Shown: piece by piece, positions 3,369 to 42,464 of the stretch
Layout of the letters: each line of letters starts with the position of its first letter
Position numbering within the stretch: the first letter of the stretch is position 1
NCBI RefSeq assembly: GCF_002209355.2
Contig: NZ_CP106855.1
Location: forward strand, 2,170,001 to 2,234,000
Reading direction: 5' to 3'
DNA: 64,000 nucleotides
Origin: Bdellovibrio sp. SKB1291214
Lineage (GTDB): Bacteria > Bdellovibrionota > Bdellovibrionia > Bdellovibrionales > Bdellovibrionaceae
Position numbers and translations under genes: made by a program
Notes under the pieces: generated by a model
Seen by the model: the letters and a program-made list of their open reading frames with translations, nothing else
Database searches by the model: none
What the model was told of the DNA's origin: nothing

Positions 3369-4853
3369 ATGTCTTCTACTTTTATCATGGCGATTGATCA
3401 AGGAACAACCAGCTCAAGGGTTTGTATTATCAATCAAGCCGGAGGTCTTGTCTCCGAAGCGCGCGAAACATTCAAGCAGATTTTCCCTGAGCCCGGGTGG
3501 GTGGAGCATGATCCTGAGGACATTTGGTTCACAACTCAAAGATCCATGCGCCTTGCGATTGAAAAAGCAAAAATCAAAGCTTCGCAAATTAAAGCCATCG
3601 GTATCACCAATCAGCGTGAAACCGTGATGGTTTGGGATAAAAAATCGGGTAAATCCGTTTACAACGCTATTGTATGGCAATGCCGTCGTACCCAGGCGCA
3701 ATGTGAGAAATTAAAAAAAGCAAAAAAAGAAAAAATGATCACTGCTAAAACCGGTTTGGTTTTAGATCCTTATTTTTCCGCCACTAAGATTCAGTGGATC
3801 TTGGCGAATGTCAAAGGTGTGAAAGAGCGGGCTCGCAAAGGTCATCTGGTTGCAGGAACAGTGGATACATTTTTACTGTCTCGTCTAACTCAAGGCGAGT
3901 CTCATAAAACAGATGTTTCAAACGCCTCGCGCACGATGCTGATGAATATTCACACGGGGTGGTGGGATGAGGACTTAACAAAGCTTTTCGGAATTCCGGA
4001 ATCGATGCTTCCTGAAATTTGTCCTTCCAATGCCGATTTTGGAGTGACTCGGGGCTTGGGCTTTATGCCGGATGGAATTCCCGTGTGTGGAATTTTAGGC
4101 GATCAGCAATCCGCACTGTTTGGACAAGCTTGTTATGATTTGGGCGATTCAAAATGTACATTTGGAACGGGCAGTTTCTTGCTTTTAAATACCGGCAAAA
4201 AAGCTGTGAAGTCTAAAAACAGATTGTTAACAACGATTGCATGGAAGCTGAAAGACGGTGACATGACGTATGCCCTTGAGGGTGGTGCTTTCGTGTGCGG
4301 AGCCGCAGTTCAGTGGCTGCGCGATGGCTTGGGATTGTTTGAACAGTCTTCGGAAATTGAGTCTTTGGCAAAAACCGTGGATACCACAGATGGCGTGGAG
4401 TTCGTGCCTGCACTAACAGGTTTAGGTGCACCCCATTGGCAACCGGATGCTCGCGGGGTGATCTGCGGTTTGACTCGTGGGACGACGAAGGCGCACATTG
4501 CGCGTGCAACCCTCGAAGCGATGGCTCTGCAAAACGTCGACATCCTTGTCACGATGGAAAAAGACTTAGGCAAAAAGCTGAAAGCAGTTCGCGTCGATGG
4601 TGGGGCTGCGGCGAATGATCTGTTGATGCAAATGCAAGCCGACTATACGGGTGTTAACGTCATTCGCCCAAAAAATCTTGAAACAACTGCCTTGGGTGCA
4701 GCCTTTATGGCGGGGCTGGGGTGTGGTTTTTGGCACGATATGAATCAAATCAAAAAGATTTGGAAAACCGATAAAGAATTTAAAGTGAAAATGGTTTCTA
4801 AAGAACGTAAAGCCCGCATGGTTCGGTGGGCCGAGGCCTTAAGCAGAGTTTAG
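3369..4853 (+). CDS. glpK: Glycerol kinase
   Basis: Cytoplasmic FGGY-family kinase that converts glycerol and ATP to sn-glycerol-3-phosphate. At 494 residues it matches the family length. The N-terminal phosphate loop AIDQGTTSSR, the glycerol-contact WQCRRT segment, GILGDQQSALFGQ and the C-terminal RVDGGAAANDLLMQ adenosine-binding region are all visible. A GAGG Shine-Dalgarno precedes the ATG. No glycerol facilitator gene is adjacent. A two-base gap links it to the PilZ-domain gene at 4856, so the two are likely one transcript. Confidence 0.95.
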   Translation: MSSTFIMAIDQGTTSSRVCIINQAGGLVSEARETFKQIFPEPGWVEHDPEDIWFTTQRSMRLAIEKAKIKASQIKAIGITNQRETVMVWDKKSGKSVYNAIVWQCRRTQAQCEKLKKAKKEKMITAKTGLVLDPYFSATKIQWILANVKGVKERARKGHLVAGTVDTFLLSRLTQGESHKTDVSNASRTMLMNIHTGWWDEDLTKLFGIPESMLPEICPSNADFGVTRGLGFMPDGIPVCGILGDQQSALFGQACYDLGDSKCTFGTGSFLLLNTGKKAVKSKNRLLTTIAWKLKDGDMTYALEGGAFVCGAAVQWLRDGLGLFEQSSEIESLAKTVDTTDGVEFVPALTGLGAPHWQPDARGVICGLTRGTTKAHIARATLEAMALQNVDILVTMEKDLGKKLKAVRVDGGAAANDLLMQMQADYTGVNVIRPKNLETTALGAAFMAGLGCGFWHDMNQIKKIWKTDKEFKVKMVSKERKARMVRWAEALSRV

Positions 4854-4855
4854 AT

Positions 4856-5545
4856 ATGAATCAATTGGGTCAAAACATCTTTAAAAAGGTTCCCGTGTCG
4901 GAAAAGAAATTTCTTTTCCGCGAGCTTGCTCATGACAAAGTCCAAATCTCTGTCAAAGGGGACGATGATTCGTTTTTTAATTTGATTGCTATGCAAACCG
5001 AGCGCGACGAGGACCTGCTTTGTCATCACACTTCGAACTCTAAGATGTTCGATAAGAATCAGTCTGTCGTCGTGAATTTTATGTTCAAAAATGAACGCTA
5101 TTTTTTTAGAACTGACTTGGTGTTTTCCACAGGCTGGGCCCATTTAAGAATTGATGGGGATTTGTTTCAACTTCAAAGACGCGCAAATGCGCGGATTGAT
5201 CTTCCCCAAAAGTACGATGCGGTTTTCAATCTCATGCAGCACAATTCCCATAAGTTTTTCATCGACTGCAAAATATTGGATGTCAGTGCTGGCGGGTTAA
5301 GAATCGCGATGGCAAATGACATCCCAGCTTTCAAGGAGGGCGACACTGTGCGTGGCACGATGCGCTTGGGTATTCGCCGTCCCATCGAGTTCGATCTCGA
5401 AGTTCGGTTCGCTCAAAACAAAGATGGGATTCAAATTGCAGGGATGCAGTTTAAAAATATCGACACTCGCATGGAAAGTCGTCTGCTGAGTTTAATGGTT
5501 GATCTCCAGCGAGAGATTTTCATTAAGTATCCGTCACATAAATAA
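4856..5545 (+). CDS. PilZ-domain protein, YcgR-like
   Basis: A 229-residue soluble protein. The N-terminal half (about 1-105) looks like a YcgR/PilZN-type beta domain. The C-terminal half carries a PilZ domain with a basic RRANAR segment (RxxxR motif) and DVSAGG (D/NxSxxG motif), both signatures of c-di-GMP binding. Such proteins act as soluble effectors on motility or exopolysaccharide machinery. The start at 4856 follows the glpK stop by two bases; an upstream in-frame start at 4826 would overlap glpK. It is the most canonical of three PilZ proteins in this window. Confidence 0.85.
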   Translation: MNQLGQNIFKKVPVSEKKFLFRELAHDKVQISVKGDDDSFFNLIAMQTERDEDLLCHHTSNSKMFDKNQSVVVNFMFKNERYFFRTDLVFSTGWAHLRIDGDLFQLQRRANARIDLPQKYDAVFNLMQHNSHKFFIDCKILDVSAGGLRIAMANDIPAFKEGDTVRGTMRLGIRRPIEFDLEVRFAQNKDGIQIAGMQFKNIDTRMESRLLSLMVDLQREIFIKYPSHK

Positions 5546-21034: not shown

Positions 21035-22447
21035 CTATTTCAAACCAAACAATTTTTGTGACTTGATTGCAGTTACAACTTTTTCCGGCACGAATTGTTC
21101 CCAGCGGGAATCCTTCGCTTCGATTAATTTCATCACGTCGGCGGAATGCAAATAGTCAGCAGTTTCATCACAACCTGATACGTCCACAATCTGCTTACTT
21201 TCCACGAAGTACGAGTAGATGTGGCGTAGGTTGTTCGGGGGAAAAAAACTTTTCGTAGTCATGCAGACTTGCGCTGTTTTATGAGGATAAACGTAAACCT
21301 TGGTTTTTTGCTCCATCAGCTTACCTAATCCTTCCAATAAACCACCTTCTAAATTTTTATAATGTGATTCTTGGAATAACTTATCCAAATGGCTGGCGCC
21401 AATAATCAACGCCAACAAGTTTTGATTATAGCGGCGTATGAACCTTTTCAAGGTGTAAAACAAACGGAAATTAGAAATCATCACGTGGTAACCAAGGCTG
21501 GTTAGCATTTCCACGCGCTCTAAAAAGTCCTTTTCGTTCACATCGCCATCAGCCAACAGGTTGTGCATGGTCAGTTCCATCACCGGCAGGATCTCGATGT
21601 CTTTACCTTCAGTGGCTTTTACATCGGCACGCATTTGTGCCACACCCTTTTGGATTACATCGATATGAGTCGTGGTCACGGGACGGAAAGTGCCTCTCTG
21701 GATTAATAGCGCTTTGCCATAGACGGCATCCGATACGTTCAAAATTTCATTTTTTGGCGAGAACATGATCGCTTCAGCTAAGCCACGGTGGACCAATTCT
21801 AAATTCATCAGACGATTATCAAAGTGGGTAAGGGCAGGGCCATTGAATTTAATCACGTCGATAACGACTTGGTCTTCTTTCAAGTTTTCAACCAGGTGTT
21901 GAACGAAATTATCAGAATCGGCCAAGCCATAGAAGGCGCCATAAATCAGGTTCACACCTAAGACGCCTAAAGCCTCTTGTTGTTGGAGACGGTGACGATC
22001 GAGCATGCGCACATGTAAAATGATTTCATTTGCCGGGCCACCGGGAGTGGCTTGAAAGCGCACCCCCATCCAGCCATGAGATTGTTTGTTGGAACCGACC
22101 GAAGCCGTTGCCACTGTTGAGGCAAAGGAGAAGAAACAAGTTTTTGCGCCACGAGGACCACTTAAGCGTTCAATCAAAAGGTGGTATTCATGATCCAACA
22201 TCTTTTCAAGGCGGGGTTCACAAACATAGCGGCCATTCGCTTCGCGGCCATAGATTTCATCGCTCACAACCATGTCATAGGCAGAAATTGTTTTCGCAAT
22301 GGTCTGCGATGCCATGCCGGCTTGAAAAAAGTGACGGGCGACTTCTTGACCTGCGCCAATTTCAGCAAAGGCACCGTAGCGTGTGAGGTCGTGATTGATC
22401 TTTAAAGCTTTGCTGACTGTTGTTGCGCAAGAAGCGTCGGAAGCCAT
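21035..22447 (-). CDS. Conserved protein of unknown function
   Basis: A 470-residue soluble protein. It begins with a region YGAFAEIGAGQEVARHFFQAG then KTISAYDMVVSDEIYG, which I recognise as widely conserved in bacteria but for which I know no established activity. There is no signal peptide or membrane span. Histidine-rich (HDLTRYG, DHEYHLL) and Asp-containing motifs suggest an enzyme. Its start ATG shares one base with the stop of the DUF502 gene, and GAGGGGGA lies upstream, so the pair is translationally coupled. A joint role at the inner membrane is plausible. Confidence 0.75.
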   Translation of the reverse strand: MASDASCATTVSKALKINHDLTRYGAFAEIGAGQEVARHFFQAGMASQTIAKTISAYDMVVSDEIYGREANGRYVCEPRLEKMLDHEYHLLIERLSGPRGAKTCFFSFASTVATASVGSNKQSHGWMGVRFQATPGGPANEIILHVRMLDRHRLQQQEALGVLGVNLIYGAFYGLADSDNFVQHLVENLKEDQVVIDVIKFNGPALTHFDNRLMNLELVHRGLAEAIMFSPKNEILNVSDAVYGKALLIQRGTFRPVTTTHIDVIQKGVAQMRADVKATEGKDIEILPVMELTMHNLLADGDVNEKDFLERVEMLTSLGYHVMISNFRLFYTLKRFIRRYNQNLLALIIGASHLDKLFQESHYKNLEGGLLEGLGKLMEQKTKVYVYPHKTAQVCMTTKSFFPPNNLRHIYSYFVESKQIVDVSGCDETADYLHSADVMKLIEAKDSRWEQFVPEKVVTAIKSQKLFGLK

Positions 22448-23052
22448 TATTTGTCCCCCTCGTGTTTATCAGCTTTCACCCAACCGGTAATGGCAAGACT
22501 CATAGCTTTTTCAATCGGAATATCGATGGGAGTGATGCGACTGCGTGGCACCAATAAAGTAAAACCACCCAAGCCGTAACTCATAGGGATGTAAACTGAA
22601 ACATGATCGTTCGCTTGTGCTTGAATCGCCAGAATGTCGGTAAAGTGTTCGCGAGTCACTAAACCCATAGCGCGAATTCCAGATTCGGCGATGTCCACCA
22701 ACACCACCGTTTGCATAGCGCCTCCAGGACCGCCGCTTTTTGAGAACATGTTCATCAAATCGCGCAGGGGACTGTAAACTGCCTTGATCAAAGGCACCTG
22801 AGTCATCTTTTGCTCAAGCTTATGAAAAATACCTGCAGTGATAAGATTATTCAGCAAGAAGCCCAAAAAGAAGATCAACAGGATCGTCAGTAAGAAGCCT
22901 AAGCCTGGAATATAGAAAGGCATCACAGTTCGCAGAGCATCGCCCAAGATGCTGTCCACAATGGAGATCCCAGCGTAGATGATATAGATCGTCAGCGCGA
23001 TTGGTAGGAACGTGACGAGTCCTTGCAAGAAAATTTTCTGAAGCTGTTTCAT
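22447..23052 (-). CDS. DUF502 family inner-membrane protein
   Basis: A 201-residue protein with two membrane segments near residues 10-32 and 48-70 (LVTFLPIALTIYIIY and GLGFLLTILLIFFLGFLL). These are followed by the typical DUF502 blocks PLIKAVYSPLRDLMN, VVLVDIAESGIRAMGLVT, and VYIPMSYGLGGFTLLVPR. The family is widespread and its function is unknown. It is first in a two-gene operon with the conserved gene at 21035. Confidence 0.9.
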   Translation of the reverse strand: MKQLQKIFLQGLVTFLPIALTIYIIYAGISIVDSILGDALRTVMPFYIPGLGFLLTILLIFFLGFLLNNLITAGIFHKLEQKMTQVPLIKAVYSPLRDLMNMFSKSGGPGGAMQTVVLVDIAESGIRAMGLVTREHFTDILAIQAQANDHVSVYIPMSYGLGGFTLLVPRSRITPIDIPIEKAMSLAITGWVKADKHEGDK

Positions 23053-23228
23053 AGCTGGATAATCCTTCTGTCTCTCTTTGTATCGGTAAAAAAGTAATAT
23101 CAGGTAAGGTCAGTGCCATCAAGGGCTTACGCTCGTCTCAAAGTGGGTCACCAATTAATGCACATTTCCGCTCATCTTTCCTAGACCATTTGCCGAATAG
23201 TTAAGGGTCAAATTTCTAAGGAGATACC

Positions 23229-25139
23229 GTGAAACTCGTTATATTAGGTTTCATCGCCTCGATCGTAGCATTCGGTGGAACAGCGTTCGCACAAATGTCG
23301 ACCGTCGTTCCGGGTGAATACATCGTGAAGGTGCGCAACAGTTCGACGGGTGTAAACCAACAAGGCGTCCGTTCAAGACTTGCACAAAGAGTCTCGGTGA
23401 AGGGTGCCTACAGCAAATTGGGCATGTACCACGTGTCGGTGCGCTCCTTAGCATCAGCCTCTGCTGAAGTGGAAGATCTTAAACAAGATCCAGACATTGA
23501 ATATGTAGAACCTAACTATATTTGGTCGACGGGTGCTAACAGTTATTCTGAAGCGGCCTCTCAAGGTTATGCGCTGCAAACGTTGGTTTCTAATAACTGG
23601 GTGGCTACGGGTGCCACTGATTACTCTCAATTCTCTTCAAGTGTAGTTAGTAAAACAGCCGTTGCGACGGCGTGGAGCTATTCAAGCTCTCTTTCTACCA
23701 ATTCCGGTAAAGTGATTGTTGCGGTGGTCGATTCTGGCTTGGATCGCACGCATCCGGTGTTTAAAGCTTATAAGTCAGATGGGACGGGCGGTTCTGGTGC
23801 TTTGTGGGTCAATACAGCAGAGGCAAACGGAACTCCGGGTTATGATGACGACGGCAATGGTTTTGTCGACGACATCAATGGCTGGAATTTTGTTACCAAC
23901 TCTCCAAATGTGAACGACGACAACAATCACGGTACGCACGTGGCGGGTATCGTCGTTGGGGCAGCGATGAATATCTTCCAACGTCCTTTACCTGAATCTA
24001 AAATTCAGATCATGCCGGTGAAGTCGTTGGGCGCAGATGGTTCTGGTACAACGGCAACGGCGATCAAGGCGATCGACTATGCCGTGAACAATGGCGCACA
24101 AGTGATCAACAACTCTTGGGGTGGTTCAAACTTTTCTAAAGCTTTGTTGGATTCCTTAACGGCTGCCTACAACAACGGTATTTTGATCGTGAATGCGGCG
24201 GGTAACTATAACAGTAACAACGACAACATCCCGATGTATCCAGCTAACTATGATTTGCCGAGTGTTATTTCCGTGGCATCTGTAGGTTCCAGTGATTCGC
24301 GCTCTTCATTTTCGAACTATGGTAAATCCACAGTTCATATCGCAAGCCCTGGTGAAAGCATTCTAAGTACTGTACCAGGTGGCGGCTATAACTATATGTC
24401 AGGGACATCGATGGCGGCTCCATTCGTAGCGGGTGTTGCGGCATTAGCTCTTCGTGAAGAACCTCAATTAACGGGTTACCAAATCAAACAAAAATTATTA
24501 GCGAATGCGGACGTGATTGCGGGTTTGGCGAATTATGTGTCTTCAAGCTCACGCGTCGACTCTGCAAAATTGCTTTTGGCCGTTCAGGCAAGTTCGGGTG
24601 AAGCGGCATCGCAACCTCAGTATGTTTATTCTTCCAGTCGTTATCCAGCATCGGCTTCAGATTCGGCAGCCGGTGGAGCGACAGGTTGTGGTTTGGTCAC
24701 GACAGCTATTCACGACGGCCCAGGTGCAGGGGGTGCTAATCCAACTGCGGGTGTGGTGTTTGGTTTGATGATGATTCCTATGGCGGTCTGGTTCGTACTT
24801 CGTCAACGTGCGATGGCAAACGATCCAAAAAATAAACGTCGTCATGAGCGCTTCAAAATGCAGTCATCGATCAAAGTAATGGTTGGCGATCGCGAGTTGA
24901 TTGGTTCTATGAATTCGATCTCTCAAGGCGGTCTGTCATTCAACACCGATCAAGCTCTGGAAAAAGGCGGCATCATCACGATGCGCATCCAAAGCCCTGA
25001 CGGCAACGAGGTTATCGAAGTGCAAGGTCAAGTCGTGTGGAGTGAAGCGAACCAATCCTACGGGGTGCAATTCGCCAACGCGAAACAGGGAACTCTGGCT
25101 ATGATCCAACAGTGGACTGCGAATCTTGTCAGATCATAG
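23229..25139 (+). CDS. Subtilisin-type protease fused through one membrane span to a PilZ domain
   Basis: A 636-residue protein. The order is: signal peptide (1-21), an I9-type inhibitory prodomain (about 26-98, ending DIEYVEPNYIW), and an S8 catalytic domain with Asp168 (AVVDSGLD), His234 (NNHGTHVAG) and Ser394 (SGTSMAAP). A low-complexity linker follows, then a membrane span at about 508-528, an Arg/Lys-rich stop-transfer segment, and a PilZ domain (about 535-636). PilZ RxxxR is intact (Arg537, Arg541), but the second motif reads SISQGG, with Ser563 where Asp/Asn is usual. Predicted topology puts the protease in the periplasm and PilZ in the cytoplasm. AAGGAG precedes the start and a terminator follows. 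Control of proteolysis by c-di-GMP is an inference. Confidence 0.9.
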   Translation: MKLVILGFIASIVAFGGTAFAQMSTVVPGEYIVKVRNSSTGVNQQGVRSRLAQRVSVKGAYSKLGMYHVSVRSLASASAEVEDLKQDPDIEYVEPNYIWSTGANSYSEAASQGYALQTLVSNNWVATGATDYSQFSSSVVSKTAVATAWSYSSSLSTNSGKVIVAVVDSGLDRTHPVFKAYKSDGTGGSGALWVNTAEANGTPGYDDDGNGFVDDINGWNFVTNSPNVNDDNNHGTHVAGIVVGAAMNIFQRPLPESKIQIMPVKSLGADGSGTTATAIKAIDYAVNNGAQVINNSWGGSNFSKALLDSLTAAYNNGILIVNAAGNYNSNNDNIPMYPANYDLPSVISVASVGSSDSRSSFSNYGKSTVHIASPGESILSTVPGGGYNYMSGTSMAAPFVAGVAALALREEPQLTGYQIKQKLLANADVIAGLANYVSSSSRVDSAKLLLAVQASSGEAASQPQYVYSSSRYPASASDSAAGGATGCGLVTTAIHDGPGAGGANPTAGVVFGLMMIPMAVWFVLRQRAMANDPKNKRRHERFKMQSSIKVMVGDRELIGSMNSISQGGLSFNTDQALEKGGIITMRIQSPDGNEVIEVQGQVVWSEANQSYGVQFANAKQGTLAMIQQWTANLVRS

Positions 25140-41789: not shown

Positions 41790-42464
41790 ATGAGAAGAAT
41801 TGCGGGAATTACACACGGTCCTTGGGTGATTGTGCCAGCGGCATTTACATTGATGGTTATTCCAGTCATGGATTTTACGACGATGCATACGGGGAGCACA
41901 GTCCCTCTTGAGATCATCGGTTGGTTGGTGGTGTTTGCCGCAGGAATTAGCTTTCTGATTCGTCATAAGCTTTTATGGCTGATTGGCCTTGTTCTGTGCG
42001 CTCTTTTTCTTGCCATCAATCTCTCTCATTTAATGTTTTTCCAAGAACCGCCACTGGCTACGGAGGCGATGGCCTTCAAAGTAGTTAGCTCGGTTGTGGT
42101 TGCTGGTGTTGCTTGGTTGTACTTTGCCAGATCTCCAGATTTGGATCGTCGCCAGCACTGGGTGGGACAGACGGCTCATCGCTTTTATGTCGATACCCCT
42201 GTTGTTTTGGGGGGCACAGAGGCATGTAAAACCGTGGACCTATCTTATACGGGAGCCCGTATTACGGTGCTTCAAGCCCGCGATAAATTCAAAGTAGGGC
42301 AAAGGGTTTCGGTGGAGATCCCCGATATTGATAGTTTGCTTTGCCAGGGCAAAATTATTGCCGTTTCGTTCAATGAGATTCGGGTCCATTTTGTAGATAC
42401 CTCTGACCGTGAACAAGAGCTGATTCGTCAGTGGCTGAACAGTCAAAATTTGCAAGGTGTTTAA
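41790..42464 (+). CDS. Membrane protein with C-terminal PilZ domain
   Basis: A 224-residue protein. The first half has three or four membrane segments (about 10-30, 40-56, 60-80 and 90-112). The cytoplasmic C-terminal half (about 118-224) is a PilZ domain with the second motif DLSYTGA intact, but the first RxxxR motif is altered (TAHRF, with Gln or Ala at the first position). Reduced c-di-GMP affinity, or binding of another partner, is possible. It faces away from the haem-barrel gene. Confidence 0.8.
   Translation: MRRIAGITHGPWVIVPAAFTLMVIPVMDFTTMHTGSTVPLEIIGWLVVFAAGISFLIRHKLLWLIGLVLCALFLAINLSHLMFFQEPPLATEAMAFKVVSSVVVAGVAWLYFARSPDLDRRQHWVGQTAHRFYVDTPVVLGGTEACKTVDLSYTGARITVLQARDKFKVGQRVSVEIPDIDSLLCQGKIIAVSFNEIRVHFVDTSDREQELIRQWLNSQNLQGV

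Follow-up and report, generated by a model that had tools for sequence, protein, structure and literature searches.

A predicted membrane-tethered subtilase with a cytoplasmic PilZ tail is conserved across the class Bdellovibrionia

Results

One open frame encodes a subtilase, a membrane span and a PilZ domain

A single open reading frame of Bdellovibrio sp. SKB1291214 (positions 23229-25139, + strand, of a 64,000-nucleotide stretch of contig NZ_CP106855.1, referred to below as the window) starts with GTG and encodes a protein of 636 amino acids, here termed the S8-PilZ protein. A signal peptide, a prodomain, a Peptidase S8 (subtilase) domain, a linker bearing a Gly-Cys-Gly (GCG) motif, a transmembrane helix and a PilZ domain follow one another in this chain. 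We propose, with a probability of roughly one half, that it is a membrane-tethered subtilase facing the periplasm, the placement or oligomeric state of which would be set by a cytoplasmic tail acting as a receptor for cyclic diguanylate (c-di-GMP).

A first-pass annotation, made by a model from the letters of the window, had already proposed a prodomain, a complete S8 triad, one membrane span and a PilZ domain in one chain, and this composition is borne out by Pfam, hydropathy, AlphaFold and conservation throughout the class. The signal peptide (residues 1-21, with cleavage between AFA and Q; 23229-23291, +) is predicted from sequence and hydropathy. It is followed by an I9/fervidolysin-type prodomain (residues 27-100; 23307-23528, +), which is seen in the AlphaFold model and in Pfam, where the fervidolysin-type match spans residues 27-96 (expectation value, E, 3e-5) and the I9 match is weak. 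The protease domain (residues 161-427; 23709-24509, +) matches Peptidase_S8 with E 4e-53. Its triad, D168, H234 and S394, and its oxyanion residue N326 show no substitution in any of the 66 relatives aligned, and they lie in a subtilisin fold (structure match 3vv3, E 4e-28), placing the protein in family S8. The nearest solved protease, the S8 enzyme deseasin MCP-01 of Pseudoalteromonas (sequence match E 2e-59; 40% identity over the aligned structures), is secreted and, unlike the S8-PilZ protein, has no PilZ tail.

Between the protease and the membrane lies a Gly/Ala/Ser-rich linker (residues 456-505; 24594-24743, +) that AlphaFold models with low confidence. These roughly 50 residues vary in length among relatives and are predicted to be disordered, with a predicted local distance difference test (pLDDT) score below 50 at segments 470-492 and 497-505, whereas most of the prodomain, protease and PilZ domain exceeds 90. 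The transmembrane helix (residues 506-526; 24744-24806, +), which AlphaFold extends over 506-531, carries a proline, Pro517, in 65/66 relatives and has R525 and R527 at its inner end. Hydropathy of the whole protein rises above 2 in two peaks, one being the signal peptide and the other residues 506-524. The orientation proposed by the first-pass annotation, with the protease outside and PilZ inside, is likewise supported by this single predicted span and by the charge distribution: in 64/64 orthologs the positive charge lies on the PilZ side (mean Lys/Arg count 7.7 after the helix versus 2.8 before), as expected for that topology. An assembly or frame artefact is ruled out, as the same frame is present in more than 110 genomes, and class-wide conservation of the fused frame is far beyond chance.

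The architecture is class-wide and probably arose once

The 636-residue protein was the query for two genome sets, 369 from the phylum and 66 from the family, and a match counted as full-length when it reached residue 590 or beyond. Full-length copies are found in 57/66 family genomes, with 4 more cut by contig ends, and in 56/78 of the remaining genomes in the order and class. In all, the architecture is present in 113/144 genomes of the class Bdellovibrionia, the weakest full-length match within the class having E 7e-94. No full-length copy occurs among the matches listed for the 225 phylum genomes outside the class; there, the S8 alignments among the matches listed extend no further than about residue 450-465, the end of the protease. 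Contigs from outside Bdellovibrionia that were fetched by protease similarity carry no PilZ domain in or beside the protease gene. A tree groups the proteases that have the GCG-helix part into a single clade (support 100/99), from which we infer a probable single origin of the architecture, ahead of the radiation of the class.

The PilZ domain is conserved at its ligand residues

The PilZ domain (residues 535-630; 24831-25118, +) matches its Pfam model with E 1e-18 and 67.6 bits against a cut-off of 22.5, and is the top-scoring PilZ domain of its genome. Used on its own as a sequence query against the PDB, PilZ had no significant match. A fold search with its model (pLDDT 91.5) found as best PDB matches the c-di-GMP-bound PilZ domains of Alg44 (4rt0 and 4rt1, E about 4e-5), MapZ, BcsA and VCA0042.

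The first-pass annotation had correctly described the arginines of the RxxxR motif, R537 and R541, and a serine, Ser563, in place of Asp/Asn at the start of the second motif, D/NxSxxG (S563-x-S565-x-x-G568). Among the 64 complete orthologs RxxxR is invariant (64/64), and S565 and G568 are kept in 61/64 and 64/64, respectively. Only 7 of 104 PilZ columns are invariant and R537, R541 and G568 are among them, the chance of both arginines falling in such columns being about 0.004. Constraint at the ligand residues is therefore supported by the alignment. Position 563 is Thr in 47 orthologs, while 12 have Ser, 4 have Asp and 1 (L143) has Asn, and Ser is found there in two other PilZ domains of the genome as well (L147 and L153). 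The doubt that the first-pass annotation had attached to Ser563 is thereby weakened, Thr or Ser being the family norm (59/64), although the residue stays non-canonical.

This departure raises the question of whether the domain has ceased to bind c-di-GMP and serves only for protein-protein docking or polar localisation, all the more as a PilZ protein with no measurable ligand binding exists, XCC6012 (PMC3131395). XCC6012, however, lacks the complete RxxxR motif that every S8-PilZ ortholog retains, and the near-constant S565 and G568 also speak against a docking-only role, which we consider improbable. The conserved residues and the modelled fold together make c-di-GMP binding by this PilZ domain likely.

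An invariant cysteine next to the membrane outlasts the PilZ domain

The linker has a mean pairwise identity of 0.375, yet Gly486-Cys487-Gly488 (24684-24692, +) is identical in 66/66 rows of the alignment. Cys487, which had no part in the first-pass account, is the sole cysteine of the protein in 24/66 rows, and an intramolecular disulphide is hence impossible in those 24. An intermolecular disulphide or acylation would be the natural reading.

Five relatives without PilZ (L145, L196, L197, L201 and L202) retain a Cys at the GCG place, the helix and a short tail. They are scattered inside the PilZ clade on the tree, where at least 5 changes are needed to account for them. Thus the PilZ domain was lost several times with the Cys and helix retained; anchoring is the older and constant feature, on which PilZ is a layer that can be removed. 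The reduced genomes that carry two of the PilZ-less forms (G221 and G249) have 5 PilZ matches, compared with 7-18 in larger relatives; the smallest genomes, with 0-1 PilZ matches, have no gene for the protease. Three orthologs, L199 (G251), L207 (G219) and L208 (G250), have a PilZ motif that diverges at the Asp/Asn position, the G251 locus not being among the listed PilZ matches; these are possible intermediates of PilZ loss. Separately, four small genomes of family f9 (G231, G253, G254 and G255) have 1-2 GGDEF matches and no PilZ match, and would make c-di-GMP with no PilZ receptor for it.

An invariant Cys followed by a helix and Arg is also the mark of MYXO-CTERM proteins, the substrates of myxosortase, in which the helix is followed by an Arg-rich end and the CPBP protease MrtX needs the Cys in order to cleave (PMC11980579). 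The PilZ-less relatives end in just this manner (L145, for example, in GGGCGLV...LALRRRCLYQD). The GCG-helix part could on this ground be a similar sorting or lipidation signal, whereby the Cys would be acylated, the helix cut and the protease sent to the cell surface, PilZ being a left-behind or gating tail. We regard this as unlikely. TIGR03901 has no match in the SKB1291214 genome at E up to 1, the genome has no Rce1/CPBP protease (PF02517) to act as sorting enzyme, and MrtX reaches its cut-off in 0/66 family genomes. Moreover, MYXO-CTERM is a tag at the extreme C-terminus shared by dozens of proteins per genome, whereas a GCG-helix profile, the sole means by which further such proteins were sought, is significant only in these S8 proteases (24 genus genomes). 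Membership in MYXO-CTERM was rejected on all of these grounds, i.e. TIGR03901, PF02517, MrtX and the shared tag.

Expression probably coincides with the attack phase

Attack-phase promoters of B. bacteriovorus share the FliA consensus TTAAG-N16-CCGATA (PMC3627812). This element lies just 5' of the start in many relatives, with scores of up to 11/11 (L030, L120, L123 and L139), and the best FliA score over the set averages 8.9 versus 7.7 (standard deviation 0.7) in shuffles. In the window, a FliA (sigma28)-like element at the site conserved in relatives (TCATC-N16-CCGAAT; 23172-23198, +) scores 6/11. As the element is degenerate here and in most of the genus, the promoter evidence is suggestive only. 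The top sigma28 score in the window (9/11) overlaps the ribosome binding site and was taken as chance. This ribosome binding site is strong (AAGGAGA; 23218-23224, +), and AAGGAG and the GTG start are kept in most genus members. In L120, L130, L131, L134, L139 and L140, CCGATA lies only 7-8 bases before the chosen ATG, and their mRNA would be leaderless if these starts are right.

In genome G003, probably that of strain HD100, a long interval holds only two PilZ matches. One is the protease gene, and the other lies about 24 kilobases away, with 17 called genes in between. These positions fit Bd2545 for the protease gene and Bd2524 for the second PilZ gene. Both Bd2524 and Bd2545 are reported to be down-regulated on leaving attack phase (PMC2797640). 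Taken with the promoter element, this suggests that the protease is probably made in attack phase.

Discussion

A model for control of envelope proteolysis

In the model that we favour, the pre-protein would be exported by Sec, and the prodomain would aid folding and inhibit the protease before being cut off, leaving the mature enzyme held at the membrane by one helix. Inside the cell, c-di-GMP would bind the PilZ barrel via R537 and R541. Binding would most likely alter the location of the protein or the formation of dimers or clusters, which Cys487 possibly locks on the outside. Proteolysis would thereby be concentrated or withheld at the predator's envelope in the attack phase, and our guess for the site of its substrate is either the zone of prey contact or the predator's own envelope. 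A more specific version, in which c-di-GMP-bound PilZ dimerises or clusters the tethered protease and Cys487 forms a covalent link or lipid anchor outside, switching envelope proteolysis during prey attack in Bdellovibrionia, is put forward tentatively.

The first-pass annotation had envisaged a direct inside-out switch by which c-di-GMP would control or localise the protease; read as allostery, c-di-GMP on PilZ would change the catalytic rate through the helix. The single chain, the predicted topology and the conserved Pro517 are all compatible with such an allosteric mechanism, and it has a precedent in logic in LapD, which acts from within the cell on the periplasmic protease LapG to control it (PMC3032553, PMC3032545). 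LapD, however, works through a structured helical relay that the S8-PilZ protein lacks, and the linker between protease and helix, variable in length and predicted disordered, argues against simple allostery. We therefore give the direct switch little credence. Because the linker is floppy, control of place or oligomeric state is favoured and would be likelier than a change of catalytic rate. That the protein is an ordinary secreted digestive subtilase with an incidental tail, as the many secreted S8 proteases of the genus might suggest (e.g. Bd2269, PMC12546842), is very improbable given a tail retained class-wide with its ligand residues.

Several points weigh against the favoured model. Position 563 differs from the canonical Asp/Asn in 59/64 orthologs, and the disorder predicted for the linker weakens any model based on force transmission. 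Scarcity of PilZ genes and loss of the PilZ domain both track small genomes, and genome reduction alone could account for this link. The Bd2545 tag is assigned from position and not from a gene table. Finally, the protease gene is not named in the main text of a 2019 transposon-sequencing paper (PMC6561027), and the literature searched, in which Bd2545 and Bd2524 appear by name in a single paper, yielded no phenotype for it.

Relation to known systems

LapD/LapG of Pseudomonas fluorescens likewise places a periplasmic protease under cytoplasmic c-di-GMP across the inner membrane (PMC3032553, PMC3032545). That system consists of two proteins, a degenerate GGDEF-EAL receptor with a HAMP relay and a cysteine protease, whereas here one chain combines a PilZ receptor, a floppy linker and a serine protease. 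A domain scan of the S8-PilZ protein found PilZ and S8 only, with no GGDEF-EAL receptor or LapG-type cysteine protease. Alg44 of Pseudomonas aeruginosa also joins a cytoplasmic PilZ domain through one helix to a periplasmic domain. Its PilZ domain is N-terminal, however, and its periplasmic part is not a protease but functions in alginate polymerisation.

The first-pass annotation knew of no described enzyme with this domain order, a claim that does not stand: a table in a 2008 survey has a row for a 'Subt-PilZ' protein of B. bacteriovorus, NP_969350.1, filed under 'Signalling' (PMC2605481). NP_969350.1 is very probably the HD100 ortholog. The row gives the same domain pairing without membrane span, Cys, conservation or mechanism, and no experiment on the pairing was found in the literature searched. 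What is new here is the topology, the class-wide conservation, the invariant ligand residues and Cys, the repeated loss of PilZ and the probable attack-phase timing.

Bdellovibrio has many PilZ receptors, and for most of them no output is known. In the S8-PilZ protein the output, a protease, is part of the receptor chain itself and is kept across the class, and this one gene makes c-di-GMP control of envelope proteolysis around prey contact testable. If the model is right, control of proteolysis from the inside out evolved separately from LapD/LapG, and no earlier single polypeptide would have been shown to function as both c-di-GMP receptor and protease.

Neighbouring genes and other PilZ genes

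Upstream and divergent from the protease gene lies a gene for a DUF502 membrane protein (22447-23052, -), a neighbour conserved in most family loci. Together with a conserved gene encoding 470 amino acids it occupies 21035-23052 (-), and this arrangement is kept in most family loci and not in the other families sampled. Elsewhere, a second S8 gene (G000:C1:529359-531800, L006) has a PilZ membrane-protein gene (a frame of 261 amino acids) about 100 bases downstream on the same strand, so that a protease and PilZ are associated a second time in this genome, here as two genes. Two further PilZ proteins are encoded in the window, at 4826-5545 (+) and 41790-42464 (+). One of them has RxxxR and DxSxxG; the other is membrane-spanning, keeps DxSxxG without RxxxR and is encoded just upstream of a probable GTP cyclohydrolase I gene.
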